33,014 nt of DNA from Comamonadaceae bacterium (GTDB taxonomy: Bacteria; Pseudomonadota; Gammaproteobacteria; Burkholderiales; Burkholderiaceae_C). Position numbers and translations under genes: made by a program. The first letter of the stretch is position 1. The number at the start of each line of letters is the position of its first letter. The stretch is from assembly GCA_947476015.1 (NCBI GenBank), contig CANJOS010000017.1, positions 1 to 33,014 of the forward strand. Reading direction: 5' to 3'. Positions 14,825 through 32,507 of the stretch are shown one piece after another. The notes under the pieces are model-generated. The model saw only the letters and a program-made list of their open reading frames with translations, was not told the DNA's origin and searched no databases.

Positions 14825-14862
14825 GGACTGGCTTTCTTTGAACAGTTCTGAAAGGGTTTGAA

Positions 14863-15321: not shown

Positions 15322-15391
15322 GAAAATATCCTTGGGTTGATTTCGAACAAAGAACTTAATTGAATGAAAGTTTTGATTGAGGCGCGTGTTT

Positions 15392-17203: not shown

Positions 17204-17255
17204 GGTTGGCTTTCAAAACTAGCAAGTCAATTGGAAGGAAAACTGCGGGTTCGCG

Positions 17256-17912
17256 TCAAGCTTTGTTGCGCGCCACGATGTCATTGAAACCTTTTCGCGC
17301 ACGCTCTGCAGCACCAGGGTTTCGAAGAAATCTGGCCTCGTAATGCAAGGCCAAGATCAAACCGTGAATTTCAAAGGCCACCTGCAAGGGGTCGGCCTGC
17401 GAAGAAAGTTGCATTTCTTCTTGCGCTTGTGCCACAGAACGTTGCAGCGCGTTTTGCCAAGTGTTGACCGAAGACGCCAAAGCATCTCGGACAGGCCCCG
17501 GGCGATCGTCAAACGCCACGGCACCACTGATGTAAATGCAACCCGAATCAATTTCGGTCGAGGTGCGTTGCATCCAGTTGTCAAACAAAGACTCCAAGCG
17601 CGGCAAGCCTCTGGTGCGCGACAGCGCAGGGTAGAAGACTTCGCTTTCAAAACGATCGTGGTATTCACGGATGACCGAAATTTGCAATTCCTCACGTGAG
17701 CCAAAGTGAGCAAACACGCCCGACTTGCTCATGCCCGTGACTTCGGCCAAGGCGCCAATCGACAAACCTTCCAAGCCAATTTGGGAAGCCAGCCCCAAAG
17801 CAGCATCGACAATGGTCGCCTTGGTCTGACGACCTTTGTGCAAGGTGCGAACGCTGGCATCGTCCGATGAACGGGTTGCCGAAGTTGCAGAAGTGATGTG
17901 TCGAACTGTCAT
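17256..17912 (-). CDS. TetR/AcrR family transcriptional regulator
   Basis: This encodes 218 residues. An N-terminal TetR DNA-binding domain (about residues 28-78) includes the helix-turn-helix IGALAEVTGMSKSGVFAHFGSREEL. A larger ligand-binding domain follows, containing the segment SGCIYISGAVAFDDRPG found in the group with a TetR_C domain of the YxaF/AcrR type. It sits first in the minus-strand block acyl-CoA dehydrogenase, DUF2147, isomerase, thioesterase, so control of fatty-acid degradation by an acyl-CoA ligand is a reasonable inference. Its own promoter region holds a perfect palindrome (17919-17942), pointing to autorepression. The first 25 residues are Ser/Thr-rich and probably disordered. 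The start ATG 17912 lies very close to the predicted transcription start. Confidence 0.93.
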   Translation of the reverse strand: MTVRHITSATSATRSSDDASVRTLHKGRQTKATIVDAALGLASQIGLEGLSIGALAEVTGMSKSGVFAHFGSREELQISVIREYHDRFESEVFYPALSRTRGLPRLESLFDNWMQRTSTEIDSGCIYISGAVAFDDRPGPVRDALASSVNTWQNALQRSVAQAQEEMQLSSQADPLQVAFEIHGLILALHYEARFLRNPGAAERARKGFNDIVARNKA

Positions 17913-18053: not shown

Positions 18054-18923
18054 TCAAGCCTTGCGCTTGTAGGCCACCACTTTTTGCGTTTGCTCGCCGA
18101 GACCCTCAATGCCCAGGTGCATGACATCGCCCTTCTTGAGGTAAACAGGGGCTGGCTTGCCATCCTTCTTGACGCCCATGCCAACGCCAGGGGGCGTGCC
18201 CGTGGTGATGATGTCACCTGGCTCCAAAGTCATGAACTGGCTCACATAACTCACCAATTTGGTGACGCCAAAAATCATGGTTTTGGTAGTGCCGGTTTGC
18301 ATGCGCTGACCATTCACATTCAAGAACATGTTGAGATTCTGCGGATTGGGCACTTCGTCTTTGGTCACCATCCAAGGGCCAATGGGGCCGAAGGTGTCGC
18401 AACCCTTGCCCTTGTCCCATGTACCGCCGCGCTCGAGCTGGTATTCGCGTTCGCTCACATCGTTGATGGTGCAATAACCGGCCACATAGTCGAGGGCTTC
18501 TTTTTGCGAAACATAACTGGCACGCTTGCCAATGACAATGCCCAACTCCACTTCCCAATCGGACTTCACAGACCCTTTTGGCAACATCACCTCGTCGTTC
18601 GGGCCTTGGATGCAGGAGGTGGTCTTCATGAACACAATGGGTTCTTTGGGCACAGGCAGGTTGGACTCGGCAGCGTGATCGGCATAGTTCAAACCAATGG
18701 CAATGAACTTGGGCACCTTGGCGACTGGGCAACCCATGCGGGGTTTGCCTTTCACCAAAGGCAGTTTGTCCGTTTTGATTTTGGCCAGCTTGGCCAATGC
18801 CTTGTCGGACAGTTGGTCGGGCCCGATGTCAGACACGAGGCCGCTTAAGTCACGCAGTTTGCCTGCAGCGTCAATCAGACCTGGTTTTTCTTTGCCGGGC
18901 TGGCCATAGCGCACGAGTTTCAT
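18054..18923 (-). CDS. FAH-family hydrolase, probable 2,4-diketo-3-deoxy-sugar-acid hydrolase
   Basis: This encodes 289 residues of the fumarylacetoacetate hydrolase family. The metal site is visible as Glu124 and Glu126 in SDWEVELGIVIG and Asp155 in TINDVSERE, with the active-site segment GLNYADHAAES (77-87). This subgroup includes the hydrolases of the non-phosphorylating L-fucose and L-rhamnose pathways, which split 2,4-diketo-3-deoxy-aldonates into pyruvate and lactate. Some members are mis-annotated as ureidoglycolate lyase. The preceding genes encode two short-chain dehydrogenases and a sugar-acid dehydratase, the usual partners. It is the last gene of the minus-strand arm, separated from the SDR gene by an 89-base AT-rich gap, and is followed by tandem terminator hairpins. 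The exact substrate is not determined. Confidence 0.88.
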   Translation of the reverse strand: MKLVRYGQPGKEKPGLIDAAGKLRDLSGLVSDIGPDQLSDKALAKLAKIKTDKLPLVKGKPRMGCPVAKVPKFIAIGLNYADHAAESNLPVPKEPIVFMKTTSCIQGPNDEVMLPKGSVKSDWEVELGIVIGKRASYVSQKEALDYVAGYCTINDVSEREYQLERGGTWDKGKGCDTFGPIGPWMVTKDEVPNPQNLNMFLNVNGQRMQTGTTKTMIFGVTKLVSYVSQFMTLEPGDIITTGTPPGVGMGVKKDGKPAPVYLKKGDVMHLGIEGLGEQTQKVVAYKRKA

Positions 18924-19012
18924 AAAAAGTCCTTTGATTAAAAGTTCAATGAAAAATAATTGAAAAAATAAAATGCCAATTTCGAATGGGGTTGATTGTG
19001 CTCGAATTTATC

Positions 19013-19762
19013 TCAATAGGTTGAGCGACCACCCGACAAATCGAACACAGCACCGGTAGAGAAAGAGCACTCCTCTGTCATCAACCAGGTCACCATGGCC
19101 GCCACTTCTTCAGGGGTGCCAAAGCGTCCCATGGGAATTTTGGAGAGCATGAATTGAATGTGCTCAGGTGTCATTTGATCGAAGATGGCTGTTTTCACGG
19201 CAGCCGGTGTGACGCAGTTGACGCGCACACCGGTGCTGGCCAACTCTTTGCCCAAGGATTTGGTGATGGCCATCACCGCAGCCTTGCTGGCGCTGTAGGC
19301 GCTGGCATTGGGGTTGCCATCTTTGCCGGCTACAGAAGCAATGTTGACAATGCGACCCGCTGGGCGTTTTTGCAAATGCGGAGCCCACTCACGGCAGCAA
19401 TAAAACACGCCATTGACGTTCACGTCCATGACCTGCTGCCAAGCGTCCACAGGATAGTTCCACACTTGGGTGTTGGGTCCGGTGATGCCTGCAGAATTGA
19501 CCAACGCATCGACGGGACCATTTTTCAAAGTAGCCTCAGTGGCAGCCGCCACAGAAGCGTGCTGAGACACATCGACTTGAACCGTGTGAACCGAACCTGG
19601 GTGCTTCAAGCCGGCGGCGGCTTTGCTCATGCCAGCCACATCACGGTCCCACAATGTGACACTGCCACCCGATGCCAAAACGCGCTCGGCAATGGCATAG
19701 CCTAAACCGGTGGCACCACCGGTGATGACCGCGTGGCGGCCTTTCATATCGTATTGATTCAT
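19013..19762 (-). CDS. Short-chain dehydrogenase/reductase, FabG-like
   Basis: This encodes a 249-residue classical SDR. The Rossmann glycine motif TGGATGLG is at 14-21, the NSAG motif at 89-92, and the catalytic Ser143, Tyr156 and Lys160 are all in place. The C-terminal LSGGRSTY matches the family ending. It is an NAD(P)-dependent alcohol/ketone oxidoreductase, and many relatives oxidise sugars or sugar acids. In this cluster it could be the sugar 1-dehydrogenase (L-fucose or L-rhamnose dehydrogenase type) or a second C4 dehydrogenase. The sequence alone does not decide. It lies 54 bases after the other SDR gene and before the FAH hydrolase gene on the same strand. Confidence 0.88.
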   Translation of the reverse strand: MNQYDMKGRHAVITGGATGLGYAIAERVLASGGSVTLWDRDVAGMSKAAAGLKHPGSVHTVQVDVSQHASVAAATEATLKNGPVDALVNSAGITGPNTQVWNYPVDAWQQVMDVNVNGVFYCCREWAPHLQKRPAGRIVNIASVAGKDGNPNASAYSASKAAVMAITKSLGKELASTGVRVNCVTPAAVKTAIFDQMTPEHIQFMLSKIPMGRFGTPEEVAAMVTWLMTEECSFSTGAVFDLSGGRSTY

Positions 19763-19816
19763 GGCAATCTCAAAAAGGAATGGGTTGTGAAAAAAGTTTG
19801 TGAAAACGAGGGGTCT

Positions 19817-20551
19817 TCAGATTGTCATGCCACCGTCCACCATGTAGGCATTGCCCGTAGCGAACGCTGACTCATCTGAGACCAAGAACACCACGATGGG
19901 GGCGATTTCATGCGCCTGTGCAAGTCGACCCATGGGCTGGCGAGCTGTGAAGTTTTTCCGCGCCTGCACGGGATCGGGTTCTGCATTGATGCGGTCTTGC
20001 AAGGAGGGGGTGTCCACCGTGCCGGGGCAAATGGCATTGCACCGAATGCCCTTGGCCACGAAATCGGCAGCCACCGCTTTGGTCAAGCCAATGACCGCTG
20101 CCTTAGAAGCACCATAGATGAATCGGTTGGGCAGCCCCCGCACGCTGGAACACACGCTGGCCATGTTGACGATGCTACCGCCGCCCTGTGCCAACATTTT
20201 CGGCAACACGGCTTGAATCATCCAAAACTGACCCCGCGCGTTGAGATTGAAAGCAAACTCCCAATCTTTGTCGGTCGCATCCAGAATGGTGCCAGCATGC
20301 ACGACGCCAGCGCAATTGAACAGTGCATCGATGCGCGGCATGGCGGCCACGTGGTGTTGGATGCTGTCTTTGTTCATCACATCCAAAACAGCGGTGTGCA
20401 CATTGGCCACGCCCTCAAATCTCTTCAGCAACTCGGCATTGACGTCGGTGGCCCATACTGTCGCCCCCTCGGCGGCCATGGCCAGGACGGCGGCGTGGCC
20501 AATGCCCTGACCCGATGCGGTCACCAAGATGGTTTTATTCTTCAGTCTCAT
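19817..20551 (-). CDS. SDR, probable 2-keto-3-deoxy-L-fuconate-type 4-dehydrogenase
   Basis: This encodes a 244-residue classical SDR. The glycine motif TASGQGIG is at 11-18, NCAG at 79-82, and catalytic Ser132, Tyr146 and Lys150 are present. The Ser-Tyr spacing of 14 residues, the block FNCAGVVHAGTILDATDKDWEF and the run NRFIYGASKAAVIGLTKAVA resemble the DHRS6/BDH2-like group. That group includes 2-keto-3-deoxy-L-fuconate dehydrogenase, which oxidises C4 of a 2-keto-3-deoxy sugar acid. ATG 20551 overlaps the stop of the dehydratase gene as ATGA, so the two are translationally coupled; an upstream in-frame start is less likely. With the FAH hydrolase it forms a dehydratase, dehydrogenase, hydrolase module. 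Confidence 0.87.
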   Translation of the reverse strand: MRLKNKTILVTASGQGIGHAAVLAMAAEGATVWATDVNAELLKRFEGVANVHTAVLDVMNKDSIQHHVAAMPRIDALFNCAGVVHAGTILDATDKDWEFAFNLNARGQFWMIQAVLPKMLAQGGGSIVNMASVCSSVRGLPNRFIYGASKAAVIGLTKAVAADFVAKGIRCNAICPGTVDTPSLQDRINAEPDPVQARKNFTARQPMGRLAQAHEIAPIVVFLVSDESAFATGNAYMVDGGMTI

Positions 20552-21660
20552 GATGTGATCTCCCAATGAATTTTTTGTCGCTTGCCAATGGCTTCCCAAT
20601 TCCAATCAATGCCTAAGCCAGACGCGTCGGGTGGGTAAGCATAGCCGTCTTTGACTTTCATGCGCGAGTGCGTGATGTCGTCCAATTGAGGAATGTATTC
20701 AACCCAAGTGGCGTTCGGAACGGCGGCACACAAACTCACATGCAACTCCATGAGAAAGTGTGGACACACCGGCACATCAAAGCTTTCTGCCAAATGGGCT
20801 GTTTTGAGCCAAGGTGTGATACCCCCAATCCGGGCCACATCTGGCTGCACCACACTGCATGCGCCTTGCTCTAAATATTCTCTGAATTGCATGGGGTGGT
20901 ACAAGGACTCGCCCACTGCCACGGGAATGGGCGTGTGCTCGCGCAAATGTCGGTGCCCCGAAACATCCTCTGCTGGCAAAGGCTCTTCCAGCCAGGCCAA
21001 ATCGAGACCTTCAAAGGCATGGGCACGCCTGACCACTTCCGCTCGGTTAAAGCCTTGATTGGCATCCGTCATGATTTCAAAGCCTGACCCTACTGCATCG
21101 CGTACTGCTGACAAGCGGGCCACATCCTCGCTGACATGGGGTCGGCCAATTTTAATTTTGGCGCCCTTGAAGCCTTCTGCTTGCGCTTTCAAAGTTTGCT
21201 CTACCAACACCTCGGGTGACAACTGCAACCAGCCCCCCTCTGTGGTGTAAAGCGGGACTTTGCTTTGCGCGCCGCCCAAGAGTTGCCACAAGGGCAATTG
21301 TTGACTTTTGGCGCGCCAGTCCCAAAGCGCCGTGTCAACGCAGGCCAAGGCCAAGCTGGTGATAGCGCCCACGGCGGTGGCATGCGTATGGAAAAATAAA
21401 TCTTTCCAAATGGCTTCAATGCGCACAGGGTTTTGGCCCAACAAACGCGGCACCAAATGATCGTGCAGCAAGGCCATGACCGAGCTGCCGCCTGTGCCGA
21501 TGGTGTAGGCATAACCGGTGCCTTCGATGCCATCACTGCACACCACTGTGAGCAACACTGTTTCTTGTGTCACAAACGATTGAATGGCGTCTGTGCGCTC
21601 CACCTTGGGTGGCAAATTAACTTGACGCAAGTGAACGCGATCAATCGTGATGGGCTTCAT
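20548..21660 (-). CDS. Enolase-superfamily sugar-acid dehydratase (mandelate racemase subgroup)
   Basis: This encodes 370 residues. The N-terminal capping domain (1-125) is followed by a TIM barrel. The Lys-x-Lys motif is Lys168/Lys170 in GAKIKIG. Metal ligands are Asp199, Glu225 and Glu251, and the Asp274/His301 dyad sits in QPDVARIGGIT and VCPHFL. This set defines the mandelate-racemase subgroup, whose members include L-fuconate, L-rhamnonate, galactarate/talarate and gluconate dehydratases. Together with the downstream dehydrogenases and hydrolase it is best read as an aldonate or aldarate dehydratase. It is shorter than L-fuconate dehydratases (about 430), so the substrate is open. ATG 21660 was chosen; the upstream in-frame start adds 16 non-conserved residues. 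It is divergent from the FadR-type regulator. Confidence 0.88.
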   Translation of the reverse strand: MKPITIDRVHLRQVNLPPKVERTDAIQSFVTQETVLLTVVCSDGIEGTGYAYTIGTGGSSVMALLHDHLVPRLLGQNPVRIEAIWKDLFFHTHATAVGAITSLALACVDTALWDWRAKSQQLPLWQLLGGAQSKVPLYTTEGGWLQLSPEVLVEQTLKAQAEGFKGAKIKIGRPHVSEDVARLSAVRDAVGSGFEIMTDANQGFNRAEVVRRAHAFEGLDLAWLEEPLPAEDVSGHRHLREHTPIPVAVGESLYHPMQFREYLEQGACSVVQPDVARIGGITPWLKTAHLAESFDVPVCPHFLMELHVSLCAAVPNATWVEYIPQLDDITHSRMKVKDGYAYPPDASGLGIDWNWEAIGKRQKIHWEITS

Positions 21661-21747
21661 AGGCAATATGAAAAAAGTTGACCTAATTCGGGTTTGTGCG
21701 GAGATCAAGAGCCTTGCCCTGATTGAAGTTCCGTGTGAAGATTGTGC

Positions 21748-21764
21748 AACTGGTCAGACCAATT
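21748..21764 (+). promoter_or_regulatory. FadR/UxuR-type operator in the divergent promoter region
   Basis: AACTGGTCAGACCAATT is a near-perfect palindrome (AAnTGGT, 3-base centre, ACCAnTT). It matches the TNGTNNNACNA core and closely resembles the AATTGGTnnACCAATT-like sites of hexuronate regulators such as UxuR/ExuR and of PdhR. It lies 23 bases before the regulator start and 87 bases before the dehydratase start, placed to control both directions. A second palindrome, AATTGGCCAATT (21761-21772), overlaps it. Confidence 0.75.
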
Positions 21765-21787
21765 GGCCAATTCACGTATTCCCTGAC

Positions 21788-22510
21788 ATGCCCCTGATTC
21801 AAGTCGAACCGCAAAGGCTTTACCGCCAAATTGCCAAACAACTTCAAGGATTGATTTCCTCTGGAGAGTTTGCCATCGGCTCTCGGATGCCAGCCGAGCG
21901 AGATTTGGCCACTCAATTGGGTGTCAGTCGCCCCTCCGTGCGGGAGGCCCTGATTGCCTTAGAGGTCGAAGGCGTGATTGAGGTGCGAACGGGCTCTGGC
22001 ATTTACGTCAAATCCTTGAGCAAGCGCGCAGCGCCCATGTCGGCGCACGCCAACACGCCCAAAGACTGGGGGCCCTTGGAAGTATTGAGTGCACGCGTCT
22101 TGGTCGAAGCCGAAGTGGCCTCGCTGGCGGCCACTCACGCTACCAGCGCAGATTTAAAGTCCATCGGCAAGGCCCTTCGAACCATGTACAAAGAAGTCAA
22201 GCAAGGCCGCCCGCCTGTGGAAGGCGATGTCGCCTTCCATTTGGCTGTGGCACAAGCTTCCGCTAACAGTGTGCTGCTGGACACTGTCGATCGTTATGGC
22301 CAAGCTCGATCAGGTCCTTTGTTCACGAGACTGGGGGATTATTTTGAATCGCCAGCCTCCTGGGCTGCAGCACTTTCTGAACACGAAGCAGTCTTGGCAG
22401 CCATTGCGGCGCACGACCCTCAAATTGCACGCAAAGCCATGCAAAAACATTTGAAACAAGCACACAAACGATTCAGCGCTAGCTGGCGAAGCGCGCCTTC
22501 TCGACAATAG
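21788..22510 (+). CDS. GntR-family regulator of the FadR/UxuR subgroup
   Basis: This encodes 240 residues. The winged helix-turn-helix (about 8-75) contains AERDLATQLGVSRPSVREALIALEVEGVI and TGSGIYV. The all-helical FCD domain follows (about 98-228), with the metal-binding pattern Asp147, His151, His199 and His221. FCD domains bind small carboxylates, and this subgroup includes the hexuronate regulators UxuR and ExuR. ATG 21788 is preferred over the ATG at 21647 because homologous sequence starts there and 240 residues is the family's length; the longer form would also run across the operator. It stands between the two arms of the sugar-acid island and is its only regulator gene, so repression relieved by a pathway sugar acid is likely. 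Confidence 0.93.
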   Translation: MPLIQVEPQRLYRQIAKQLQGLISSGEFAIGSRMPAERDLATQLGVSRPSVREALIALEVEGVIEVRTGSGIYVKSLSKRAAPMSAHANTPKDWGPLEVLSARVLVEAEVASLAATHATSADLKSIGKALRTMYKEVKQGRPPVEGDVAFHLAVAQASANSVLLDTVDRYGQARSGPLFTRLGDYFESPASWAAALSEHEAVLAAIAAHDPQIARKAMQKHLKQAHKRFSASWRSAPSRQ

Positions 22511-22555
22511 TTTTTCGCCAGCAAATCACATTTTTATTCAACCAAAGGAGACTCC

Positions 22556-23554
22556 ATGACCACCAAAAGAAAAACCGTCAAAGCACTTGCCAGTGCCAGC
22601 CTCATTGCCTTGGGCATCATGAGCGGCCTGCTGAGTACCTCTGCGCAAGCCCAAACCAAATTGAAATGGGCCCACGTTTATGAAACTTCAGAGGCTTATC
22701 ACACAGAATCTGTGTGGGCTGCCGATGAAATTAAAAAGCGGACCAACGGCAAATATGAAATTCAGGTTTTCCCGGCTTCCACATTGGGCAAAGAAACAGA
22801 CATTAACCAAGGTTTGACTTTGGGCACCGTCGACATGATCATCAGCGGCCCTTCCTTTGCGGCCCGTGCCTATCCTCGTTTCGGCATTGCTTACTACCCC
22901 TTCATCTTCCGTGATGGCGATCACCTCATTGCGTTCTCTAAGAGTCAAGTGTTTGGTGAAATGGTCAAGGAATTCCAAGCCAAAACAGGTATTCAAGTGA
23001 CGGCCTACACTTACTACGGCGCACGTCACACCACAGCACAAAAAGCTTTCACTAATTGCGCTGGCATGAAGGGCATCAAGATTCGCGTGCCTGATGTGCC
23101 TGCCTACCGTGCAACGCCAGAAGCTTGCGGCGCTAATCCAACCCCGATTGCGTTTGCTGAAGTTTATTTGGCATTGCAAAACGGCACCGTTGATGCACAA
23201 GAAAATCCTTTAACCACCATCGAAGCCAAGAAGTTCTTCGAGGTTCAAAAGGCGATCATGCTCACGGGCCACATTGTCGACGGCTTGACTACTCAAATTG
23301 CACCTCACGTCTGGAACAAGCTCAGCGATGCTGAAAAGAAAATTTTCACCGACGTTACGCAAGAAGCCGCTGCACGCGCGACTGCAAAAATCAAGGCGCG
23401 CGAAGTTGAGTTGGTCGACGAGTTTAAAAAGAAAGGCCTGCAAGTTGTCCAAGTCGATCGCAAGTCATTCCAAGATGCTGTCTTGAAAAACAAACCCTTG
23501 GAATCCATGGGTTTCACCAAGTCTGACTTCGACCGAATTCAAGCTGCGAAGTAA
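22556..23554 (+). CDS. dctP: TRAP transporter substrate-binding protein DctP
   Basis: This encodes 332 residues, starting at ATG 22556 after a good AGGAG site (22546-22550). A signal peptide ends at about residue 32 (TSAQA before QTKLKWAH). The mature protein is the periplasmic binding component of a TRAP (tripartite ATP-independent periplasmic) transporter. It has the family features LKWAHVYETSEAYH, GADxxxSG-like GTVDMIISGPS, and KGIKIRVPDVPAY, whose Arg normally clamps the substrate carboxylate. FAEVYLALQNGTVDAQENP is also diagnostic. Relatives bind sialic acid and hexuronates. Its place just before dctQ, dctM and hexuronate enzymes favours a uronate or aldonate ligand. It is separated from dctQ by a strong terminator hairpin, which suggests higher expression than the membrane subunits. 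Confidence 0.95.
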   Translation: MTTKRKTVKALASASLIALGIMSGLLSTSAQAQTKLKWAHVYETSEAYHTESVWAADEIKKRTNGKYEIQVFPASTLGKETDINQGLTLGTVDMIISGPSFAARAYPRFGIAYYPFIFRDGDHLIAFSKSQVFGEMVKEFQAKTGIQVTAYTYYGARHTTAQKAFTNCAGMKGIKIRVPDVPAYRATPEACGANPTPIAFAEVYLALQNGTVDAQENPLTTIEAKKFFEVQKAIMLTGHIVDGLTTQIAPHVWNKLSDAEKKIFTDVTQEAAARATAKIKAREVELVDEFKKKGLQVVQVDRKSFQDAVLKNKPLESMGFTKSDFDRIQAAK

Positions 23555-23597
23555 TCGTCTCGCTTGAAAGAAGATGGCGTGCCCTTGGTACGCCCCA

Positions 23598-23636
23598 CAC
23601 AGGTTGAGCCCTTCAGGCTCAACCTGTGATATTTTT
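23598..23636 (+). terminator. Intra-operon terminator between dctP and dctQ
   Basis: A perfect 13-bp stem (CACAGGTTGAGCC / GGCTCAACCTGTG) with a 5-base CTTCA loop is followed by ATATTTTT. It begins 43 bases after the dctP stop. This has all the features of a Rho-independent terminator and should be partly read through to express dctQM and the catabolic genes. Confidence 0.88.
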
Positions 23637-23649
23637 CCTAGGATTCAAA

Positions 23650-24225
23650 ATGAGCAACCTCCCCGATCTAGACGCCATGCCCAAAGTGATGGGCGACGAT
23701 GGGCAGTTTCATGCTGTCGATGATGAAGTCGATTTGTCCGGAACCCCCATAGAAGCTTGGGTTGCTTTGGGCTTTTTCTGGATCTTGGGCGTCACGGTGT
23801 TTTACCAATTCTTCACACGCTACGTGCTCAACAACTCAGCGTCTTGGACAGAAGAAATTGCGCGTTATCTGTTGATTGCAGTCGTCTTCACGGGGGCCAC
23901 CATTGGGGTGGCCAAGAACAACCACATTCAAGTGGACTTCTTTTTCAAATTCATGCCCAACTGGATGTCCAGAGGCATGGCCACCTTGGTAGACATCATG
24001 CGCGTGGTATTTTTCACAGTCGCCACGCTTCTCACTTGGCAAATGATGGAGAAATTGGGCACTTACAAAATGACCATCATCGACTTGCCCATGAATTTGG
24101 TTTATGGCGTTGTCATGGCAGGCTTTGCCGCAATGAGTTTGAGGGCCATGTGGGTCATGCGAATTCACTGGCAACGAGGCTTCACCGTCTTAGAACGCCC
24201 AGAGTCAGAGATGACCGACCGCTAG
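23650..24225 (+). CDS. dctQ: TRAP transporter small permease DctQ
   Basis: This encodes 191 residues with a roughly 35-residue acidic N-terminal tail and four membrane helices: near 37-57, 75-95, 115-137 and 150-172. It matches DctQ, the small membrane subunit of TRAP transporters, including the motif NSASWTEEIARYLLIAVVFTGATIGVAKNNHI reduced to its hallmark W-EE-R core. ATG 23650 is preferred because AGGA (23640-23643) lies 6 bases upstream; an earlier in-frame start (23626) falls inside the terminator stem. It is followed by dctM after 38 bases. Longer acidic tails than usual are seen before helix 1, with no known function. Confidence 0.92.
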   Translation: MSNLPDLDAMPKVMGDDGQFHAVDDEVDLSGTPIEAWVALGFFWILGVTVFYQFFTRYVLNNSASWTEEIARYLLIAVVFTGATIGVAKNNHIQVDFFFKFMPNWMSRGMATLVDIMRVVFFTVATLLTWQMMEKLGTYKMTIIDLPMNLVYGVVMAGFAAMSLRAMWVMRIHWQRGFTVLERPESEMTDR

Positions 24226-24263
24226 GTTAGACCCTCTTTGTTTAGACGCCAGAAAGTATTCTC

Positions 24264-25658
24264 ATGTTGAAAATTCTATTTTTACTCCTGATGAGCGGCG
24301 GTATTCCTGTGGCCATTGCCATGGCGGGTGCCTCACTCATCTATTTGTTCTGGACGCAAAGCTCGCCGCCATTTGTGGTCATTCACCGCATGGTGTCGGG
24401 CATTGACAGCTTTCCCTTGTTGGCCGTGCCCTTCTTTATCTTGGCCGGCAACCTCATGAACAATGCCGGTATCACCAACCGGATTTACAACTACGCTTTG
24501 GCGTTGGTGGGTTGGATGAAGGGCGGCCTGGGCCATGTCAACGTGGTGGGGTCGGTCATTTTTGCAGGCATGAGCGGCACAGCCATCGCAGACGCAGCAG
24601 GTTTAGGCACCATTGAAATCAAAGCCATGAAAGACCATGGCTACAGCACAGAATTTGCTGTTGGTGTTACTGCAGCTTCGGCCACTTTGGGGCCCATCAT
24701 TCCGCCCAGTTTGCCCTTTGTCATTTACGGCATGATGGCCAATGTGTCGGTGGGTTCCCTGTTTCTAGCCGGTATCTTGCCTGGCGTCTTAATGGCCTTG
24801 CTGATGATGGTCACCGTGGCCTACTTTGCTCACAAAAACAATTGGGGCGCTGATGTGAAGTTTGAATGGCCTCGGGTTTTAAAAGCCTTGTCTGAATCGG
24901 CTGTGGTGATTGGCTGGCCCATCGGTGTTTGGGGATTGGTGACTTTGCTGGAGACGCCCCCCCAGTTGACGGTCTTCATTTCACTCGGATTTTTATTCAT
25001 CGCTGACAAAATTTTCAAATTTCAAGCTGTGCTGCCCATCATGACGCCTGTGCTGCTCATTGGCGGCATGACCACCGGCGTTTTCACCCCCACCGAAGGC
25101 GCCATTGCGGCTTGCGTCTGGGCCATCATTTTGGGATTTTTCTGGTACCGCACGCTGAACTTTAAAATGTTCGTGAAAATTTGCTTGGATACGGTAGAGA
25201 CCACCGCCACCGTGATGTTCATTGTGGCAGCCGCCAGTATTTTTGGCTGGATGCTCACGGCCACCGGCGTCACCGCCGCCATCGGTGAGTGGGTGCTGGG
25301 CGTCACACAAGAGCCTTGGAAATTTTTGCTGCTGGCCAACCTGCTCATGCTTTTTGTAGGCTGCTTTTTAGAGCCCACCGCGGCCATTACCATCTTGGTG
25401 CCCATCTTGGTTCCAATTTGCCAGAAGCTTGGCATTGACTTGGTTCACTTTGGCTTGGTCATGGTGCTCAACCTGATGATTGGTTTGCTGCATCCCCCCA
25501 TGGGCATGGTGCTGTTTGTGTTGGCACGCGTGGCCAAGCTCAGTGTAGAAAGAACCACCGCCGCTATCCTGCCTTGGCTGTTCCCCTTGCTCGGCAGCTT
25601 GGTCATCATCACTTATGTGCCAAGCCTTGTGCTTTGGTTGCCTAAACAATTTTATTGA
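24264..25658 (+). CDS. dctM: TRAP transporter large permease DctM
   Basis: This encodes a 464-residue inner-membrane protein with about 12-13 hydrophobic helices. It is the sodium-coupled translocating subunit of the TRAP system. Diagnostic segments are PLLAVPFFILAGNLMNNAGI, GSVIFAGMSGTAIADAAGLG, SATLGPIIPPSLPFVIYG and, in the second half, GVFTPTEGAIAACVWA and FLEPTAAITILVPIL. It is somewhat longer than typical DctM proteins (about 425-430), mainly because of an extra hydrophobic stretch in the middle (around residues 210-260, which contains VTLLETPPQLTVFISLGFLF). It sits between dctQ and the altronate-dehydratase-like gene, whose ATG follows after 9 bases, so transport and catabolism are in one transcript. 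Confidence 0.95.
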   Translation: MLKILFLLLMSGGIPVAIAMAGASLIYLFWTQSSPPFVVIHRMVSGIDSFPLLAVPFFILAGNLMNNAGITNRIYNYALALVGWMKGGLGHVNVVGSVIFAGMSGTAIADAAGLGTIEIKAMKDHGYSTEFAVGVTAASATLGPIIPPSLPFVIYGMMANVSVGSLFLAGILPGVLMALLMMVTVAYFAHKNNWGADVKFEWPRVLKALSESAVVIGWPIGVWGLVTLLETPPQLTVFISLGFLFIADKIFKFQAVLPIMTPVLLIGGMTTGVFTPTEGAIAACVWAIILGFFWYRTLNFKMFVKICLDTVETTATVMFIVAAASIFGWMLTATGVTAAIGEWVLGVTQEPWKFLLLANLLMLFVGCFLEPTAAITILVPILVPICQKLGIDLVHFGLVMVLNLMIGLLHPPMGMVLFVLARVAKLSVERTTAAILPWLFPLLGSLVIITYVPSLVLWLPKQFY

Positions 25659-25667
25659 ATTGAAACC

Positions 25668-27194
25668 ATGAGCCTTTTTATTCGACTTCATTCTGCCGAT
25701 GACGTGGTCATTGCGCGCGGACAACTGATGAGCGGCACCAGCCTCGATGGCGTGGCAGTTCGGGGCCTGATCCCGCCAGGACACAAAGTGGCGACACGGG
25801 CCATTCAAGCAGGCCAAGCTGTGCGTCGCTACAACCAAATCATTGGCTTTGCCAGCACCGACATTCAACCGGGCGAGCACGTGCACACACACAACCTCAA
25901 CATGGGGGCCGAGAAGGGCAACTTTGAGCGCGACTATGCCATTGGCCAAGATGTGAAGCCTGAAGCGCCTCGCAAACACGCGACGTTCATGGGCATCAAG
26001 CGATCGGATGGCCGCGTGGCCACACGCAATTACATCGGTGTGTTGTCCAGCGTCAATTGTTCAGCCACGGCCGCACGCGCCATTGCCGATCATTTTTCCA
26101 AACGCAACAATCCCGCTGCGCTTGCCAACTTCCCCAACGTCGATGGCGTGGTGGCATTAACGCACGGCACCGGTTGTGGCATGGACACCGAAGGTCTGGG
26201 CATGCAGTTGTTAGAACGCACTTTGGCTGGCTACGCCACACACGCGAATTTCTGGGGGGTGGTGGTGGTGGGCTTGGGCTGCGAGTCCAATCAACTCAAA
26301 ACCTGGTTGGCACACAGCAGTTTGCGTGAGGGCGATACGCTCAAGGTGTTCAACATTCAAGACACAGGCGGCACTCGACTCACCGTTGAAAAAGGCATTG
26401 CGCTCATCCAAGAAATGTTGCCGCGCGCCAACCAAGTGAAACGCGAACCGTGCAGCGCAGAACACATCACGGTGGGATTGCAATGCGGTGGCTCCGACGG
26501 CTACTCTGGTATCAGCGCCAACCCTGCGTTGGGCGCAGCGGTTGACTTGCTGGTTCAACACGGTGGCACCGCCATCTTGAGCGAAACGCCTGAAATTTAC
26601 GGTGCCGAGCATTTGCTCACACGCCGCGCAGTTCAACCTGAAGTAGCCCAAAAACTCATTGATCGCATTCGCTGGTGGGAACACTACACCGAAATGAACG
26701 GCGGCGAGATGAACAACAACCCTTCGCCAGGCAACAAAGCGGGTGGCCTCACCACCATCTTGGAGAAGTCCTTGGGTGCTGTGGCCAAAGGCGGCACCAG
26801 CAATCTGCAAGCGGTTTACGAATATGCGGAACCCGTTGACTCGCACGGCTTTGTCTACATGGACACGCCAGGTTACGACCCGGTCAGTGCCACAGGTCAA
26901 GTCGCGGGCGGGGCCAATCTGATTTGCTTTACCACGGGTCGCGGCAGCGCTTATGGTTGCGCACCCTCTCCCAGTTTGAAGTTTTCCACCAACACTGCTT
27001 TGTGGAAAAAACAAGAAGAAGACATGGACCTGAACTGCGGCGAAATTGTGGACAACGGTGTCAGCATTCCCGACATGGGTCAGCGTATTTTCGAGATGAT
27101 CTTGAAAGCCGCTTCAGGCGAGCCCACCAAAAGTGAGCGGCACGGTTATGGTCAAAATGAATTTGTGCCTTGGCAAGTCGGCGCGGTCATGTGA
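25668..27194 (+). CDS. uxaA: Altronate dehydratase family protein (UxaA/GarD family)
   Basis: This encodes 508 residues: an N-terminal SAF domain (about 1-90, ending GEHVHTHNLNMG), a linker, and the C-terminal UxaA/GarD catalytic domain (about 105-505). The catalytic part has the family markers RVATRNYIGVLSSVNCSATAA, THGTGCGMDTEG, GLGCESNQ, LQCGGSDGYSGISANPALG and the late FTTGRGSAYGCAPSPSLKFSTN. The conserved cysteines and glycines for iron binding are present. Altronate dehydratase turns D-altronate into 2-keto-3-deoxygluconate in galacturonate breakdown. Galactarate dehydratase and L-galactonate or other aldonate dehydratases share the fold, so the exact substrate is uncertain. It lies 9 bases after dctM and 13 before the Ldh2-type gene. 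Confidence 0.85.
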   Translation: MSLFIRLHSADDVVIARGQLMSGTSLDGVAVRGLIPPGHKVATRAIQAGQAVRRYNQIIGFASTDIQPGEHVHTHNLNMGAEKGNFERDYAIGQDVKPEAPRKHATFMGIKRSDGRVATRNYIGVLSSVNCSATAARAIADHFSKRNNPAALANFPNVDGVVALTHGTGCGMDTEGLGMQLLERTLAGYATHANFWGVVVVGLGCESNQLKTWLAHSSLREGDTLKVFNIQDTGGTRLTVEKGIALIQEMLPRANQVKREPCSAEHITVGLQCGGSDGYSGISANPALGAAVDLLVQHGGTAILSETPEIYGAEHLLTRRAVQPEVAQKLIDRIRWWEHYTEMNGGEMNNNPSPGNKAGGLTTILEKSLGAVAKGGTSNLQAVYEYAEPVDSHGFVYMDTPGYDPVSATGQVAGGANLICFTTGRGSAYGCAPSPSLKFSTNTALWKKQEEDMDLNCGEIVDNGVSIPDMGQRIFEMILKAASGEPTKSERHGYGQNEFVPWQVGAVM

Positions 27195-27207
27195 TGAAAG
27201 TTAAATC

Positions 27208-28266
27208 ATGAGTCAATGCATTCAGGCAACACAGTTGCGCCAACAAGTGACCCGCATCATTCAAAAAGCAGGCAGCCAAACCGCTGAAGCTGAACAGGTG
27301 GCCGCCAACTTGGTGATGGCCAATTTGAGTGGTCACGACTCGCATGGTGTGGGCATGGTGCCGCGCTATGTCGATGCCGTGCTGGAGGGTGGACTGAACC
27401 CCAACACGGGAGTCAAAGTCGTCCTCGACACGGGCCCCCTGCTCAACTTAGACGGACAACGCGGCTATGGCCAAATCACGGGTGTGCAAGCCATGCAAAT
27501 GGGCATTGAACGTGCCAAACAACATGGTATTTGCACAGTGGCGCTCAGTCGTTCGCATCACTTAGGACGGATTGGTCATTTTGCAGAAATGGCAGTGGCG
27601 CAAGGTTTGGTATCGGTGCATTTTGTCAATGTCTTGTCGCGCCCCGTGGTGGCACCGTTTGGCGGCGGTGATGGCCGCTTTGGTACCAACCCCTGCTGTA
27701 TCGGCGTGCCCATGGGCCAACGCAAGCCCTTCGTGCTTGACTTCGCCACCAGCCGTGTGGCGCAAGGCAAGATGCGCGTGGCCCACAACAAAGGTGATCA
27801 AGTGCCTGATGGTTATTTGATTGATGAAAATGGGCACCCCACTAACAACCCCGGCGTGGTGGTGGTGCCGCAGGCCAATGGGTTCTTTGGGGCGCTCATG
27901 CCTTTTGGTGAACACAAAGGCTTCGGCATGGCCATGGCCTGCGAATTGTTGGGCGGCGCCCTCACAGGAAGCGGCACATGGCATCGCCAAGCCGACGACA
28001 AACGTGCCGTGCTCAACGGCATGCTGACCATGATCATTGATCCGGTTCGATTGGGCACTCAAGCTGCCTTTGAAAATGAAGCACTGGCGTTTGAAGACTG
28101 GTTGCGTCAAAGCCCCAATGCACCTGGGACGGATGGTGTTTTGCTGGCGGGCGAGCCAGAACGCAACGCTCGCACAGACCGTGAAAAGAATGGTATCTGG
28201 ATCGACGACGCCACCCTGGCAGAAATTCAGGCTGCCGAAGACAAACTCAAGAACCGTCATGTCTGA
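27208..28266 (+). CDS. Malate/L-lactate dehydrogenase (Ldh2) family oxidoreductase
   Basis: This encodes 352 residues of the Ldh2 superfamily, NAD(P)-dependent 2-hydroxyacid dehydrogenases distinct from classical LDH/MDH. Relatives include YlbC/AllD (ureidoglycolate), YiaK (2,3-diketo-L-gulonate) and L-sulfolactate dehydrogenases. Diagnostic segments are ANLSGHDSHGVGMVPRYVDAV (39-59, with the catalytic His in SHG), SRSHHLGRIGHFAEMA, GTNPCCIGVP, FVLDFATSRVAQGKM and FGEHKGFGMAMACELLGGALTG. In this operon a role in reducing or oxidising a 2-keto sugar acid, or in handling lactate or glycerate released by the hydrolase arm, is possible; the sequence does not say which. Its last 8 bases overlap the next gene, indicating translational coupling. 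Confidence 0.88.
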   Translation: MSQCIQATQLRQQVTRIIQKAGSQTAEAEQVAANLVMANLSGHDSHGVGMVPRYVDAVLEGGLNPNTGVKVVLDTGPLLNLDGQRGYGQITGVQAMQMGIERAKQHGICTVALSRSHHLGRIGHFAEMAVAQGLVSVHFVNVLSRPVVAPFGGGDGRFGTNPCCIGVPMGQRKPFVLDFATSRVAQGKMRVAHNKGDQVPDGYLIDENGHPTNNPGVVVVPQANGFFGALMPFGEHKGFGMAMACELLGGALTGSGTWHRQADDKRAVLNGMLTMIIDPVRLGTQAAFENEALAFEDWLRQSPNAPGTDGVLLAGEPERNARTDREKNGIWIDDATLAEIQAAEDKLKNRHV

Positions 28267-29674
28267 TCAGAAACTCTGTCGCGCCACACTGCCTCAAGTA
28301 CCCACCAGCATTCAGACCCCTGCGTATTCGCCGCAAGCATCAGCACCCGGTGTGTTGCATCTCGGCTTAGGGGCTTTTCACCGCGCGCATCAGGCCATGG
28401 TGTTTGATCAATTGTTGCGTGAAGGTGATAGACGCTGGGGCATTCATGGGGTGGGCATGACGCAAGCTGGCTTGGTCAACAAGCTGCGGGCACAAGATGG
28501 TTTGTATGCAGTGCGCATTGCAGGCGCAACAGGCATTCAGTGGCAAGTCCTTGGTGCTTTGTGGCAAACCAGTGTGGCCACCACCGAAAGACAGCATGTG
28601 CTGGACGCCATGGCCGCCAGCAGCACGCGATGGATCACCCTCACAGTGACCGAAAAAGGCTACACACCCTCACTGGCACAACTTCTCATTGACGGCTTGC
28701 GTTTGCGGCATGCGGCTGGCAATGCAGGGCTCACCATTGCCTCCTGTGACAACTTGCAAGGCAACGGCCACGCACTCAAAGCCTTGATTCACGCGACAGC
28801 TGCGCCACAAGACGATCAGCTCTTGGCATGGATCGACGCCCATTGTGCGTTCCCGTGCAGCATGGTCGATCGAATTGTGCCCGCAGCCACAGCAGACATA
28901 GCGGCGGCGGCCAAAGATGCGCTGGGTTTAGAAGATGAATGCGCGCTGAGTACCGAAACATTTTGGGAGTGGGTCATTGAAGACAACTTTGTTGACCCAG
29001 GTGATGCGGCTTTGCTGGCCCGATGCGGTGTGCGTGTCACGTCACAAGTTCACAGCTATGAAGAAGCCAAACTGCGGATGTTGAACGGCAGTCACTCTGC
29101 CATGGCCCTGATGGGTGCGGTCACTGGCCGCGCGCACATTGCCGACTGCATTGGGGCAGATCACATTCGTGAGTTTGTGTACCGATTGATGAGTCAGGAA
29201 GTCGCGCCGCATTTAAGCCGCACCGATTGGGCCGATTACCGCGATGCCCTGATTCAACGTTTTGGCAATCCTTATTTGAAACACAGCGTGCATCAAATTG
29301 CCACCGACAGTTCACAAAAAGTACCCCAGCGCTGGCCCCCTTCTGTGTTGGGTCAAATGGCAACAAGTGCTTGCTTTGAACACCACGCAATGGCGGCTGC
29401 TGTATTTTTACGCTACACCTTGGCCAAGGATGAGCAGGGCAAAACTTATTCACTCAACGATCCTCAGGCCGAAAGCCTCATGGCCATCGGTGCAAAGCAA
29501 GCCACCGAGCCCCATGAATGTGTGCGGGCCTTCTTGGCGCGTGAAGACTTGTGGGGTGCAGAACTGGTGACATCTGAGGCTTGGCTTGAACGCGTCAGCC
29601 ATTGGCACGACCAAGTTTTACACCAAGGCATTGATGCCACTGTGAAATACATCATTCAACAAAACTTTTCATGA
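28259..29674 (+). CDS. uxuB: Mannitol dehydrogenase family protein, probable fructuronate reductase
   Basis: This encodes 471 residues of the long-chain mannitol dehydrogenase family. The NAD-binding domain starts at [16 protein letters not shown] (31-46). The catalytic Lys-x4-Asn-x2-His triad is Lys271, Asn276 and His279 in [12 protein letters not shown]. Family members include fructuronate reductase (UxuB), tagaturonate reductase, mannitol, arabinitol and altronate oxidoreductases. The next gene encodes D-mannonate dehydratase, so NADH-dependent reduction of D-fructuronate to D-mannonate is the natural reading. ATG 28259 lies inside the end of the preceding gene and gives the canonical N-terminus; a start at 28037 would add 74 residues in a shadow frame. 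Its stop overlaps the manD start as ATGA. Length is slightly below E. coli UxuB. Confidence 0.88.
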
Positions 29675-30882
29675 AAATCACCGCCGCTCGCGTCATTGTT
29701 TGCAGCCCAGGCCGCAATTTCGTCACCCTCAAAATCGAAACCGATCAAGGTCTCACAGGCATTGGCGATGCCACACTCAATGGCCGCGAGCTGTCGGTGG
29801 TGAGTTATTTGGAAGAGCACGTCATTCCCTGCCTGATTGGCCGAGATCCGCAGCAAATTGAAGACATTTGGCAGTATCTTTACAAAGGTGCTTACTGGCG
29901 CAGGGGGCCGGTGACCATGAGTGCCATTGCCGCGGTGGACACGGCGCTGTGGGACATTAAGGGCAAAATTTCAGGACAACCCCTTTACCAATTGCTCGGC
30001 GGTCGAAGTCGCACCGCCATCATGTCCTATGCCCATGCCACAGGTCGCGACACGGCAGAAACGGTGGACGAAGTGTTGCGTCACAAAGAAATGGGCTACT
30101 TGGCGATTCGTGCGCAAAGCGGCATTCCTGGCCTCAACAAAGTCTATGGCGTGAGTGGCAACGGCCGCATGTACGAACCTGCCGATGGCCCCTTGCCCGG
30201 CGAGCACGATTGGAGCACCGAGAAGTATTTGAATCACACCCCGGGTTTGTTTCAAGCCGTCCGCGAAGCCGTAGGGCCCGATGTTCATTTGCTGCACGAT
30301 GCACACCACCGCTTAACGCCCATTGAAGCAGGTCGGTTGGGCAAAGCCCTTGAACCCTTCCATTTGTTTTGGCTAGAAGACCCAACGCCTGCAGAAAACC
30401 AAGAAGCCTTCAAACTCATCCGCCAACACACCACGACGCCTTTGGCTGTCGGTGAAATTTTCAACACCATTTGGGATTGCAAAGATTTGATCGAGCAGCA
30501 ACTCATTGACTACATCCGTACCACCGTCACACATGCAGGGGGCATCACGCACCTCAGGCTGATTGCCAATTTGGCCAGCCTTTACCAAGTGCGAACGGGA
30601 TGCCACGGTGCCACCGACATGTCACCCGTTTGCATGGGTGCTGCTTTGCACTTTGACACTTGGGTGCCCAATTTTGGCATTCAAGAACACATGGCGCACA
30701 GCGAAGAAATGCTGTCGGTGTTCCCGCACGATTGGCGCTTCGAAAAAGGCATGCTGTATTGCGGCGAAACACCCGGCCACGGTGTGGACATCGATGAAAA
30801 ACTGGCCGCCAAATACCCGTATCAGCGCGCTTACTTGCCCGTCAACCGTTTGCAACACGACGGTACATTGTGGAGTTGGTAA
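29671..30882 (+). CDS. manD: D-mannonate dehydratase, enolase superfamily (ManD)
   Basis: This encodes 403 residues. It dehydrates D-mannonate to 2-keto-3-deoxy-D-gluconate. Numbering agrees with characterised ManD enzymes: Arg147 and Tyr159 as the active-site pair, metal ligands Asp210, Glu236 and Glu262, catalytic His212, and Glu339 in FGIQEHM near the C-terminus. [23 protein letters not shown] (77-99) and [10 protein letters not shown] (310-319) are diagnostic. Some family members are low-activity or D-gluconate-preferring (RspA-like), so kinetic class is not proven, but the upstream UxuB-like gene, coupled by ATGA overlap, argues for real mannonate flux. It is the last gene of the plus-strand arm and is followed by a strong terminator. 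Confidence 0.93.
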
Positions 30883-30926: not shown

Positions 30927-31583
30927 TTAAAGAATTCTGGCCAAAGACGCCTGCAAATTCTCTGAAGGCAAGCGCTTAAAGCCAGAGCGTGCAAAGCGTT
31001 GCATACGGCCCATCATGAAAGCAACCAACAGGGAAGCCGTCACTTGTGCGTCCACTGTGGGTGTATCGCTTTGCGAACCCCCATCGCGCAAGGATTGTTT
31101 GAACGAGCTTTCGAGTTTGTCGAAAAGCAAGTTCATGCGCTCTTGCAGCCGCTCATTCTCAAAGACCAATGCATCGCCCGTCATGACGCGCGCCATGCCA
31201 GGGTTTTTTTCTGCGAATTGCAAAATAAGTGCCACCATGCGCCCCACTTGTGCAGGCCCTGCAGGCTCACGATCGGCAATTTGACGCACAAATGCAAACA
31301 CCGATTGCTCCACAAAATCAATCAGGCCCTCAAACATTTGCGCTTTGCTGGCGAAGTGACGGTACAGCGCTGCTTCACTCACACCCAGCTTGGCAGACAA
31401 GGCCGCCGTGGTGATCCGCTCAGCGCCAGGCTGCTCCAGCATGCCGGCCAAGGTTTGTAAAATTTGCAGGCGCCGCTCACCGGGCTTAGGCCGCTTGCGT
31501 GTGGGTGCATCTGAAACTCCCGACGCTTCGTTTTCTGGCAAATGGTCTGCCGATGTTGACTCAGGTGTGGTCTCAGATGTCAT
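30927..31583 (-). CDS. slmA: Nucleoid occlusion factor SlmA
   Basis: This encodes 218 residues: a TetR-type DNA-binding domain (about 35-90) and a helical C-terminal dimerisation domain. Segments close to E. coli SlmA are ERRLQILQTLAGMLE, RITTAALSAKLGVSEAALYRHFASKAQMFEGLIDFVE and NPGMARVMTGDALVFENERLQERMNLLFDKLE. SlmA binds DNA at specific sites and blocks FtsZ ring assembly over the nucleoid, rather than acting as a classical metabolic repressor. An acidic, Ser/Thr/Pro-rich N-terminal extension of about 30 residues precedes the core, longer than in E. coli. It is 15 bases downstream of argB on the same strand, an arrangement I recall from other betaproteobacteria. Confidence 0.92.
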   Translation of the reverse strand: MTSETTPESTSADHLPENEASGVSDAPTRKRPKPGERRLQILQTLAGMLEQPGAERITTAALSAKLGVSEAALYRHFASKAQMFEGLIDFVEQSVFAFVRQIADREPAGPAQVGRMVALILQFAEKNPGMARVMTGDALVFENERLQERMNLLFDKLESSFKQSLRDGGSQSDTPTVDAQVTASLLVAFMMGRMQRFARSGFKRLPSENLQASLARIL

Positions 31584-31598
31584 GAAGGTTCCCTTAGC

Positions 31599-32507
<909 letters not shown>

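Follow-up and report, generated by a model that had tools for sequence, protein, structure and literature searches.

Organization of the island

The 33,014-nucleotide stretch analysed here (the window; contig CANJOS010000017.1 of the Comamonadaceae bacterium assembly GCA_947476015.1) is one entire contig of a 2.80-Mb genome, 79% complete, and carries a divergent island of sugar-acid genes (Table 1). The minus strand holds a hydrolase of the fumarylacetoacetate hydrolase (FAH) family, two short-chain dehydrogenases/reductases (SDR1 and SDR2) and an enolase-superfamily protein (ENO), and the plus strand a GntR regulator, the genes of a tripartite ATP-independent periplasmic (TRAP) transporter, a UxaA/GarD-family dehydratase, an Ldh2-family dehydrogenase, a UxuB-like dehydrogenase and the D-mannonate dehydratase ManD, whose product is 2-keto-3-deoxygluconate (KDG). 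A preliminary description, made from the sequence alone, had assigned a C4-type SDR and an FAH hydrolase to the minus arm and UxuB-, ManD- and UxaA-like genes to the plus arm; comparisons with Pfam, NCBIfam and PDB verified these open reading frames (ORFs) and families at their coordinates, and ENO and SDR2 on the minus arm and the TRAP and Ldh2-family genes on the plus arm, which it had left out, are added here. Genes overlap by 4 bases (SDR1/ENO and UxuB/ManD) or 8 bases (Ldh2/UxuB). As already described, family scans recognised neither a KDG kinase (kdgK) nor a 2-keto-3-deoxy-6-phosphogluconate (KDPG) aldolase (eda) among the island proteins, and the absence of the kinase from the island is real; likewise, no lactonase was recognised among the proteins scanned and no L-gulonate dehydrogenase gene in the island. 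We propose that sugar acids taken up by the cell are probably degraded by this island through oxidation and cleavage of a common intermediate rather than through its phosphorylation.

Table 1. Features of the sugar-acid island, in window positions.
Feature	Position	Strand	Evidence or remark
FAH-family 2,4-diketo-3-deoxy-acid hydrolase (LRA6/FucG type)	18054..18923	-	Pfam FAA_hydrolase; NCBIfam NF053535; PDB 8gsr; His83/Glu86
SDR2, second SDR	19013..19762	-	SDR Pfam; two broad NCBIfam subfamilies
SDR1, L-2-keto-3-deoxyfuconate 4-dehydrogenase-type SDR; proposed KDG 4-dehydrogenase	19817..20551	-	PDB matches; R-T-R-R pattern; catalytic triad
ENO, enolase-superfamily acid-sugar dehydratase or cycloisomerase	20548..21660	-	MR_MLE Pfam
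Operator-like inverted repeat TGGTCAGACCA, conserved	21751..21761		between the divergent arms
GntR/FadR-family regulator, ExuR/UxuR-like	21788..22510	+	NCBIfam best ExuR, 144.6 bits (cut-off 396); 37% to Escherichia coli ExuR
TRAP solute-binding protein DctP	22556..23554	+	
TRAP small permease DctQ	23650..24225	+	weak YiaM match, 34 bits, below cut-off; lies between DctP and DctM
TRAP large permease DctM	24264..25658	+	
UxaA/GarD-family sugar-acid dehydratase (D-altronate/D-arabinonate/D-idonate-type)	25668..27194	+	
Ldh2-family hydroxyacid dehydrogenase, HcxB-like	27208..28266	+	NCBIfam PRK10098, 510 bits (cut-off 336); 45% to E. coli HcxB
Mannitol-dehydrogenase-family hexonate 5-dehydrogenase (UxuB/YdfI-like)	28259..29674	+	
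D-mannonate dehydratase ManD, product KDG	29671..30882	+	NCBIfam ManD; PDB 2qjj

Conservation and linkage of the two arms

Gene content was compared in 36 full named loci, covering approximately 10 kb on either side of SDR1. FAH and Ldh2 are present in all 36, UxaA and SDR2 in 35, ENO and UxuB in 30 and ManD in at least 22, the last value being a lower bound since in 8 of the other 14 loci UxuB ends less than 600 bases from the fetched end, with ManD beyond the edge. This gene set is not due to chance, and the clustering of dehydratase, 4-dehydrogenase and hydrolase that is typical of the pathway called Route III (see below) is found in 35 of the 36. Most of the nearest named relatives of SDR1 (L007 to L026, 87-91% identical) are assigned to Limnohabitans, Comamonadaceae or Burkholderiales; the contig of L008 (CALPYQ020000063.1), with a Limnohabitans-type island at 91% identity, is labelled Singulisphaera, probably through a binning or labelling error. 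In a survey of 90 genomes of the genus, SDR1 was found in 82, ManD in 61 and both in 59; in 44 of these 59 the two genes lie on the same contig, 6.0-11.3 kb apart, and in 15 on separate contigs.

In the family sample, a UxaA-like gene was found in 122 of 299 genomes, and 100 regions chosen from the matches listed were fetched, of which 80, all from other genera, extend 6 kb or more to either side of the gene and were counted. The 20 left out have less than 6 kb on one side; five of them contain ManD, together with SDR1 and FAH in L180, L192 and L210, with SDR1 only in L191 and with neither in L187, which ends 71 bases upstream of UxaA. SDR1 and FAH occur at 52 of the 80 counted loci, namely 50 of the 61 with a UxaA identity of at least 64% and 2 of the 19 below this value, the latter matches being mostly in other gene contexts. 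The SDR1-FAH pair remains beside UxaA, which stands on the opposite arm, even where ENO, ManD and UxuB are absent; ENO is therefore not an obligate partner of the pair. A self-contained L-fucose-like pathway of ENO, SDR1 and FAH was considered and rejected, ENO being absent from 6 of the 36 full named loci that keep SDR1 and FAH (L039, L047, L053, L061, L078 and L081), five of which retain UxaA.

An operator-like site shared by both arms

The inverted repeat TGGT-N3-ACCA occurs three times in the window, for 0.61 copies expected, and 2 of 100 shuffles reached three; the copy between the divergent arms reads TGGTCAGACCA. Divergent regions, taken from SDR1 or ENO to GntR, DctP or UxaA, could be delimited in 105 cases (30.3 kb), and 75 of them hold one site, in 73 cases TGGTCNGACCA, compared with 138 sites over the whole 3.03 Mb of these 180 loci; the loci are kin to one another, so that these 75 sites are not 75 independent events. 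The site also precedes GntR in L142 and in the kinase-containing operon L149 and, with one change, in the kinase operon L147, both of which are described below. In L144, L145 and L157 the sequence TGGTCAGGCCA, read by eye, stands before GntR. No copy was found in the seven kinase loci fetched from the genus (L093 to L099, the last from a genome, G037, without SDR1 and without ManD) or in L005, the edd-eda/dgo locus of the genome studied here. From this distribution both arms seem to be under one regulator, and operons with either tail seem to be run by a common system. By linkage and by the site in 75 of 105 divergent regions, the two arms behave as one regulon.

The enzymes of the minus arm

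The best PDB matches of SDR1 are human DHRS6/BDH2 and the L-2-keto-3-deoxyfuconate 4-dehydrogenase (L-KDFDH) of Herbaspirillum huttiense. The window protein keeps the Ser-Tyr-Lys triad, the equivalent of Asp41 and the R-T-R-R ligand pattern, which in the available text of PMC11199699 defines type 1 L-KDFDH; the four residues (Arg148, Thr183, Arg192 and Arg214) are also kept in 147 of 147 homologues. For the H. huttiense enzyme that source gives kcat/Km values, per min per mM, of 7900 for L-2-keto-3-deoxyfuconate (L-KDF), 1480 for L-2-keto-3-deoxygalactonate (L-KDGal), 641 for D-2-keto-3-deoxypentonate (D-KDP) and 75 for D-KDG, all four being 4(S) acids (PMC11199699). Since D-KDG is oxidised by this enzyme, the oxidation of KDG at C4 is a measured side activity and not a new reaction, and the conservation of all the ligand residues in SDR1 supports KDG as its substrate. 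Position 252, where Trp contacts the C6 methyl of L-KDF and where W, M, F and L are allowed (PMC11199699), is Met in the window SDR1. Among 115 island-type SDR1s it is M in 95, I in 19 and L in 1, and among lower-identity SDR1s it is Trp in 25 of 32, including the ManD-linked L142, L144, L145 and L157.

The FAH protein scores 483.1 bits against NF053535 (2,4-didehydro-3-deoxy-L-rhamnonate hydrolase), just short of the cut-off of 500, and is not filed as a member of this equivalog. Its best PDB match is 8gsr, an L-2,4-diketo-3-deoxyrhamnonate hydrolase, and it contains the catalytic pair His83/Glu86 with the same numbering as reported for C785_RS20550 (available text of PMC6336799); despite the score below cut-off, it is predicted to work like the NF053535 hydrolase.

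SDR2 is less specific in its matches, being just above the cut-offs of two broad subfamilies (NF005559 'glucose 1-dehydrogenase', 219 bits for 215; FabG NF009466, 222.4 for 222), and its closest PDB entries (6d9y, 9jve and 9kq1) bear no substrate name. It was not seen in the collinear operons L142, L144, L145 and L157. SDR2 may be a 4(R) 2-keto-3-deoxy-acid dehydrogenase, or else an aldose 1-dehydrogenase, and because it exceeds the 'glucose 1-dehydrogenase' cut-off, the absence of an aldose dehydrogenase from the island is not claimed. ENO has a KIK motif at 184, numbered from the ORF start at 21708, and scores 286 bits against the TalGalacDh model (cut-off 500); its nearest PDB entries are 5xd7, a 3,6-anhydro-L-galactonate cycloisomerase, and 2pp0, an L-talarate/galactarate dehydratase. 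The pathway of the former, its closest solved structure, yields L-KDGal, the second-best substrate of L-KDFDH, and a link of ENO to an algal sugar is possible.

The enzymes of the plus arm

The UxaA/GarD-family protein is 34% identical to E. coli UxaA and 36% to GarD, and falls outside the E. coli-type UxaA. It is 63% identical to a PD1222 gene beside DgoK/DgoA and 62% to an Azospirillum brasilense gene beside uxaC, and because of these two relatives we file it with the D-arabinonate/D-altronate/D-idonate group. The cysteines of the superfamily are in place (Cys131, 170, 205 and 273), at a constant offset of 3 from those of C785_RS13685 (134, 173, 208 and 276; PMC6336799). The H. huttiense relative is reported, in the available text, to dehydrate D-arabinonate and, weakly, D-altronate, L-fuconate and L-galactonate (PMC6336799). 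The UxuB-like protein is 36% identical to both E. coli UxuB and YdfI and 25% to UxaB, with YdfI (4im7) as best PDB match, and reaches 295 bits against the fructuronate reductase model (cut-off 603). ManD is well above the NCBIfam equivalog cut-off (726 bits for 550) and matches 2qjj best. The Ldh2-family enzyme perhaps acts on the hydroxyacid product.

Alternation of the SDR1-FAH pair with a kinase

Ten of the 80 UxaA-like loci contain ManD together with UxaA, and they differ in their tail enzymes: five have SDR1 and FAH without a kinase, two a PfkB kinase only (L147 and L149), two have SDR1, FAH and a kinase (L142 and L145) and one SDR1 and a kinase without FAH (L141). The alternation is visible in the gene orders, which are GntR-zADH-DctPQM-ENO-SDR1-FAH-UxaA-ManD-UxuB-Ldh2 in L157, GntR-zADH-DctPQM-UxaA-ManD-UxuB-kinase-zADH in L149 and GntR-zADH-TRAP-UxaA-ManD-UxuB-kinase in L147. 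For the five operon kinases scanned, the KDG/KDGal kinase model was the best or second-best match, always below its cut-off. The front end of L147, with L-idonate 5-dehydrogenase-like and fructuronate-reductase-like genes (both below cut-off), resembles the L-gulonate pathway of Haemophilus influenzae (TRAP, GulD, UxuB, UxuA, KdgK and KdgA; available text of PMC5788505). In the UxaA tree the kinase-only L147 and L149 lie inside a clade with SDR1-FAH loci; the swaps are few, and so are the loci compared. The pair is thus found where related ManD/UxaA operons hold a KDG-kinase-like gene, which fits KDG as its substrate.

In other genera, an IlvD/EDD dehydratase lies near SDR1-FAH-UxaA on the same strand (L195, L196, L201 and L202). 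It is a close relative (83-85%) of the copy in L005, which in four loci read from the genus is accompanied by kinases; an equivalent exchange of tails may have taken place behind a different dehydratase.

Kinases, aldolases and uronate isomerase elsewhere in the genomes

Outside the island, the genome studied here (G000) contains edd-eda and DgoK/DgoA, and its two PfkB genes score 43.5 and 28.6 bits against the KdgK model, whose cut-off is 400. A search for kdgK and kdgA, as proposed in the preliminary description, thus returns the aldolase (eda) and, in a 79%-complete draft, PfkB proteins far under the cut-off in place of a kdgK. Locus L005 (contig C2, 7611-14900) carries an IlvD/EDD dehydratase, a D-erythronate-dehydrogenase gene, DgoK and DgoA, with eda-edd adjacent on the opposite strand; its DgoK is above the cut-off of Pfam DGOK, although NCBIfam gave no match. 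DgoK was found in 78 of the 90 genus genomes. For glucarate dehydratase, only weak enolase matches were obtained in this genome.

None of the 90 genomes passes the curated KdgK cut-off of 400 bits, and two groups of KdgK-leaning PfkB kinases are distinguished below it. The first is present in 18 genomes, including close relatives of the window, with 17 at 338-362 bits and one split (G027, C4:21769-22520, one piece having an in-frame TGA). In L093 to L095 its neighbours in the cluster are galactarate and glucarate dehydratases and an aldolase of the HpaI/GarL type. Of these three loci L093 was scanned; there GarD is above its cut-off and the other two are below, and a uronate dehydrogenase was named by eye, with no NCBIfam match at the limit used. 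The second group occurs in 57 genomes, at approximately 104-170 bits and with some fragments, and adjoins DgoK and DgoA in L096 to L099. Neither group was found in 15 genomes, this one included, and six genomes with ManD and SDR1 have neither (G000, G011, G034, G038, G039 and G073, all drafts, 77-95% complete); the absence from this genome may be an assembly gap. A lineage without KDG kinase was therefore rejected, the 18 and 57 genomes with KdgK-leaning kinases being 75 of 90, and the same counts, with the edd-eda and DgoK/DgoA genes, do not support a genome-wide lack of kinase and aldolase.

The uronate isomerase UxaC was found in none of the 56 good genomes of the genus and in one of the 90 overall (G011, 9% contaminated), the same search being positive in 7 of 14 named control genomes. 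In the region C7:25910-30019 this sole UxaC lies beside a second ManD, 80% identical. Since UxaC is absent, these bacteria lack the usual route by which glucuronate and galacturonate become fructuronate and tagaturonate, so that hexonates are likelier inputs than the hexuronates named in the preliminary description. Of the 90 genomes, 84, this one included, encode a MOFRL domain of the glycerate-kinase type, and D-glycerate therefore probably has an outlet.

Proposed pathway and alternative explanations

In the proposed pathway the TRAP transporter would import hexonates, such as D-mannonate, D-altronate, L-gulonate or related acids, and the GntR-family regulator would control the island as a sugar-acid regulon. 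SDR1 would oxidise KDG at C4 with NAD+, FAH would split the 2,4-diketo-3-deoxy-gluconate into pyruvate and D-glycerate, and the latter would join metabolism through glycerate kinase; through ENO and SDR2, other 2-keto-3-deoxy acids would probably be delivered or oxidised for cleavage by the same hydrolase. We infer every substrate and flux in this scheme from the observed families, active-site residues, linkage, operator-like site, tail alternation and genome-wide presence and absence of genes. That KDG is a main substrate of SDR1 and FAH appears, on these sequence data, slightly favoured. The wider proposal is an ATP-free end route for hexonates in which C4 dehydrogenase and diketo-hydrolase replaced KDG kinase and KDPG aldolase as a dedicated, co-regulated tail yielding pyruvate and D-glycerate; such a route would be common among Limnohabitans-type bacteria and occur sporadically in their family. 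This wider proposal remains tentative, and we give it a probability of roughly 0.48. Of the KDG dehydrogenase and diketo-hydrolase route first suggested for this DNA, the enzymatic core receives partial support from the behaviour of the arms as one regulon and from the alternation with kinases, whereas the hexuronate input and a genome free of kinase and aldolase are not supported.

Several results weigh against this proposal. In 75 of the 90 genomes of the genus, including 53 of the 59 that have ManD and SDR1, KdgK-leaning kinases lie elsewhere, edd-eda is present in the genome studied here, and 23 of the 82 genomes with SDR1 gave no ManD match. The H. huttiense enzyme is 105-fold less efficient on D-KDG than on L-KDF, with a Km for KDG of 6.6 mM (available text of PMC11199699), and a residue mark for KDG was sought in SDR1 and none was found, position 252 being unsorted by context. 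The alternation is itself imperfect, as L142 and L145 hold SDR1, FAH and a kinase together, L142, L144 and L145 are from one genus, which makes the ten ManD loci fewer than ten independent cases, and in L144 other genes separate ManD and UxuB from UxaA. The exact site was not found in L144, L145, L154 and L157, and L154 is without any match. Moreover, SDR2 may belong to an aldose-oxidising pathway.

Alternatively, the pair could serve another 4(S) 2-keto-3-deoxy acid (L-KDGal, L-KDF or D-KDP). The UxaA-like enzyme or ENO would produce this acid from L-galactonate, L-fuconate or D-arabinonate, with the KDG of ManD going to KDG kinase and KDPG aldolase elsewhere and the arms sharing only a regulator. 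The assayed L-KDFDH indeed favours these acids (PMC11199699), the H. huttiense UxaA/GarD relative acts on D-arabinonate and, weakly, on D-altronate, L-fuconate and L-galactonate (PMC6336799), the kinases are there, the SDR1 genomes without a ManD match would be explained, and SDR2 could be the aldose dehydrogenase of that pathway. We nevertheless consider this explanation somewhat unlikely, as the kinase operons L147 and L149 share the front end and the operator-like site and lack SDR1-FAH, the kinase loci checked (L093 to L099) are without the site, and the scanned proteins of the island include no recognised lactonase. A further explanation is a general hub, where the dehydrogenase pair and one hydrolase would take 2-keto-3-deoxy acids of several configurations from at least three dehydratases (UxaA-like, ManD and ENO, with IlvD/EDD in relatives), KDG being a minor substrate drained mainly by kinases. 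Three dehydratases and two SDRs in one island, the four IlvD/EDD loci of other genera and the broad specificity of the H. huttiense relative (PMC11199699) are in agreement with it; since the tail alternates with kinases in ManD operons and the seven kinase loci are without the site of the island, we regard it as quite improbable.

Relation to known systems

Route III is in print for L-KDF, with lactate as a product, for L-2-keto-3-deoxyrhamnonate (L-KDR) and for D- and L-KDP (PMC6336799, in the available text), and D-KDG was among the substrates assayed with the H. huttiense enzyme; the hexuronate route said in the preliminary description not to be known thus has precedents of its kind. The L-fucose and pentose Route III of H. 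huttiense (C785_RS13675 and C785_RS20550; available text of PMC6336799 and PMC11199699) has in common with the window a UxaA/GarD dehydratase, a 4(S) SDR with R-T-R-R and an FAH protein with the His-Glu pair, as well as, predicted on the window side, NAD+-linked oxidation and C-C cleavage to pyruvate and a hydroxyacid. The window differs by its ManD, UxuB and TRAP genes, by the lack of a recognised lactonase and by KDG as the expected main intermediate, which would give D-glycerate instead of lactate or glycolate. The H. influenzae L-gulonate pathway shares the TRAP transporter, UxuB, a mannonate dehydratase and KDG as product, but uses UxuA and ends in KDG kinase and KDPG aldolase, where the window has ManD and SDR1 with FAH (PMC5788505). 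The hydrolase of the Sphingomonas L-rhamnose Route III (LRA5/LRA6; 8gsr) is the closest solved relative of the window FAH; LRA5 is a separate L-KDR 4-dehydrogenase (PMC11199699, PMC6336799), and SDR2 could be of that kind.

For the ManD-linked tail, no description was found in titles and abstract openings of the open literature, a weak negative as most subscription papers lay outside this search. Work by Watanabe in 2019 (Mol Microbiol) on the D-altronate/L-galactose pathway of Acidovorax avenae reportedly channelled KDG from D-altronate into Route III enzymes and proposed pyruvate and D- or L-glycerate as products from hexonates. There, L-galactonate is said to be C5-epimerised by two dehydrogenases, whereas the window has ManD, UxuB and TRAP genes. 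The idea first put forward for this island is therefore close to a prior proposal, and what is new, as far as open papers show, is that the tail is set among ManD, UxuB and TRAP genes and alternates with kinases, together with the operator-like site and the distribution described here.

Sugar-acid breakdown has KDG as a central intermediate, for which phosphorylation or aldolase cleavage is normally assumed. If the proposal is true, a dedicated oxidative tail alters the predicted ATP and NADH yields and makes D-glycerate a product, and these acids may still be used by genomes scored as lacking KDG kinase. In freshwater, Limnohabitans-type bacteria are common, and their use of sugar acids bears on carbon flow from algae and plants.

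The island is flanked in the window by acyl-CoA dehydrogenase, enoyl-CoA hydratase and TetR genes (14060-17912) on one side and by TetR and argB (30927-32498) on the other. The same flanking genes are found at many loci, in the genus and in other genera, even beside shorter islands.

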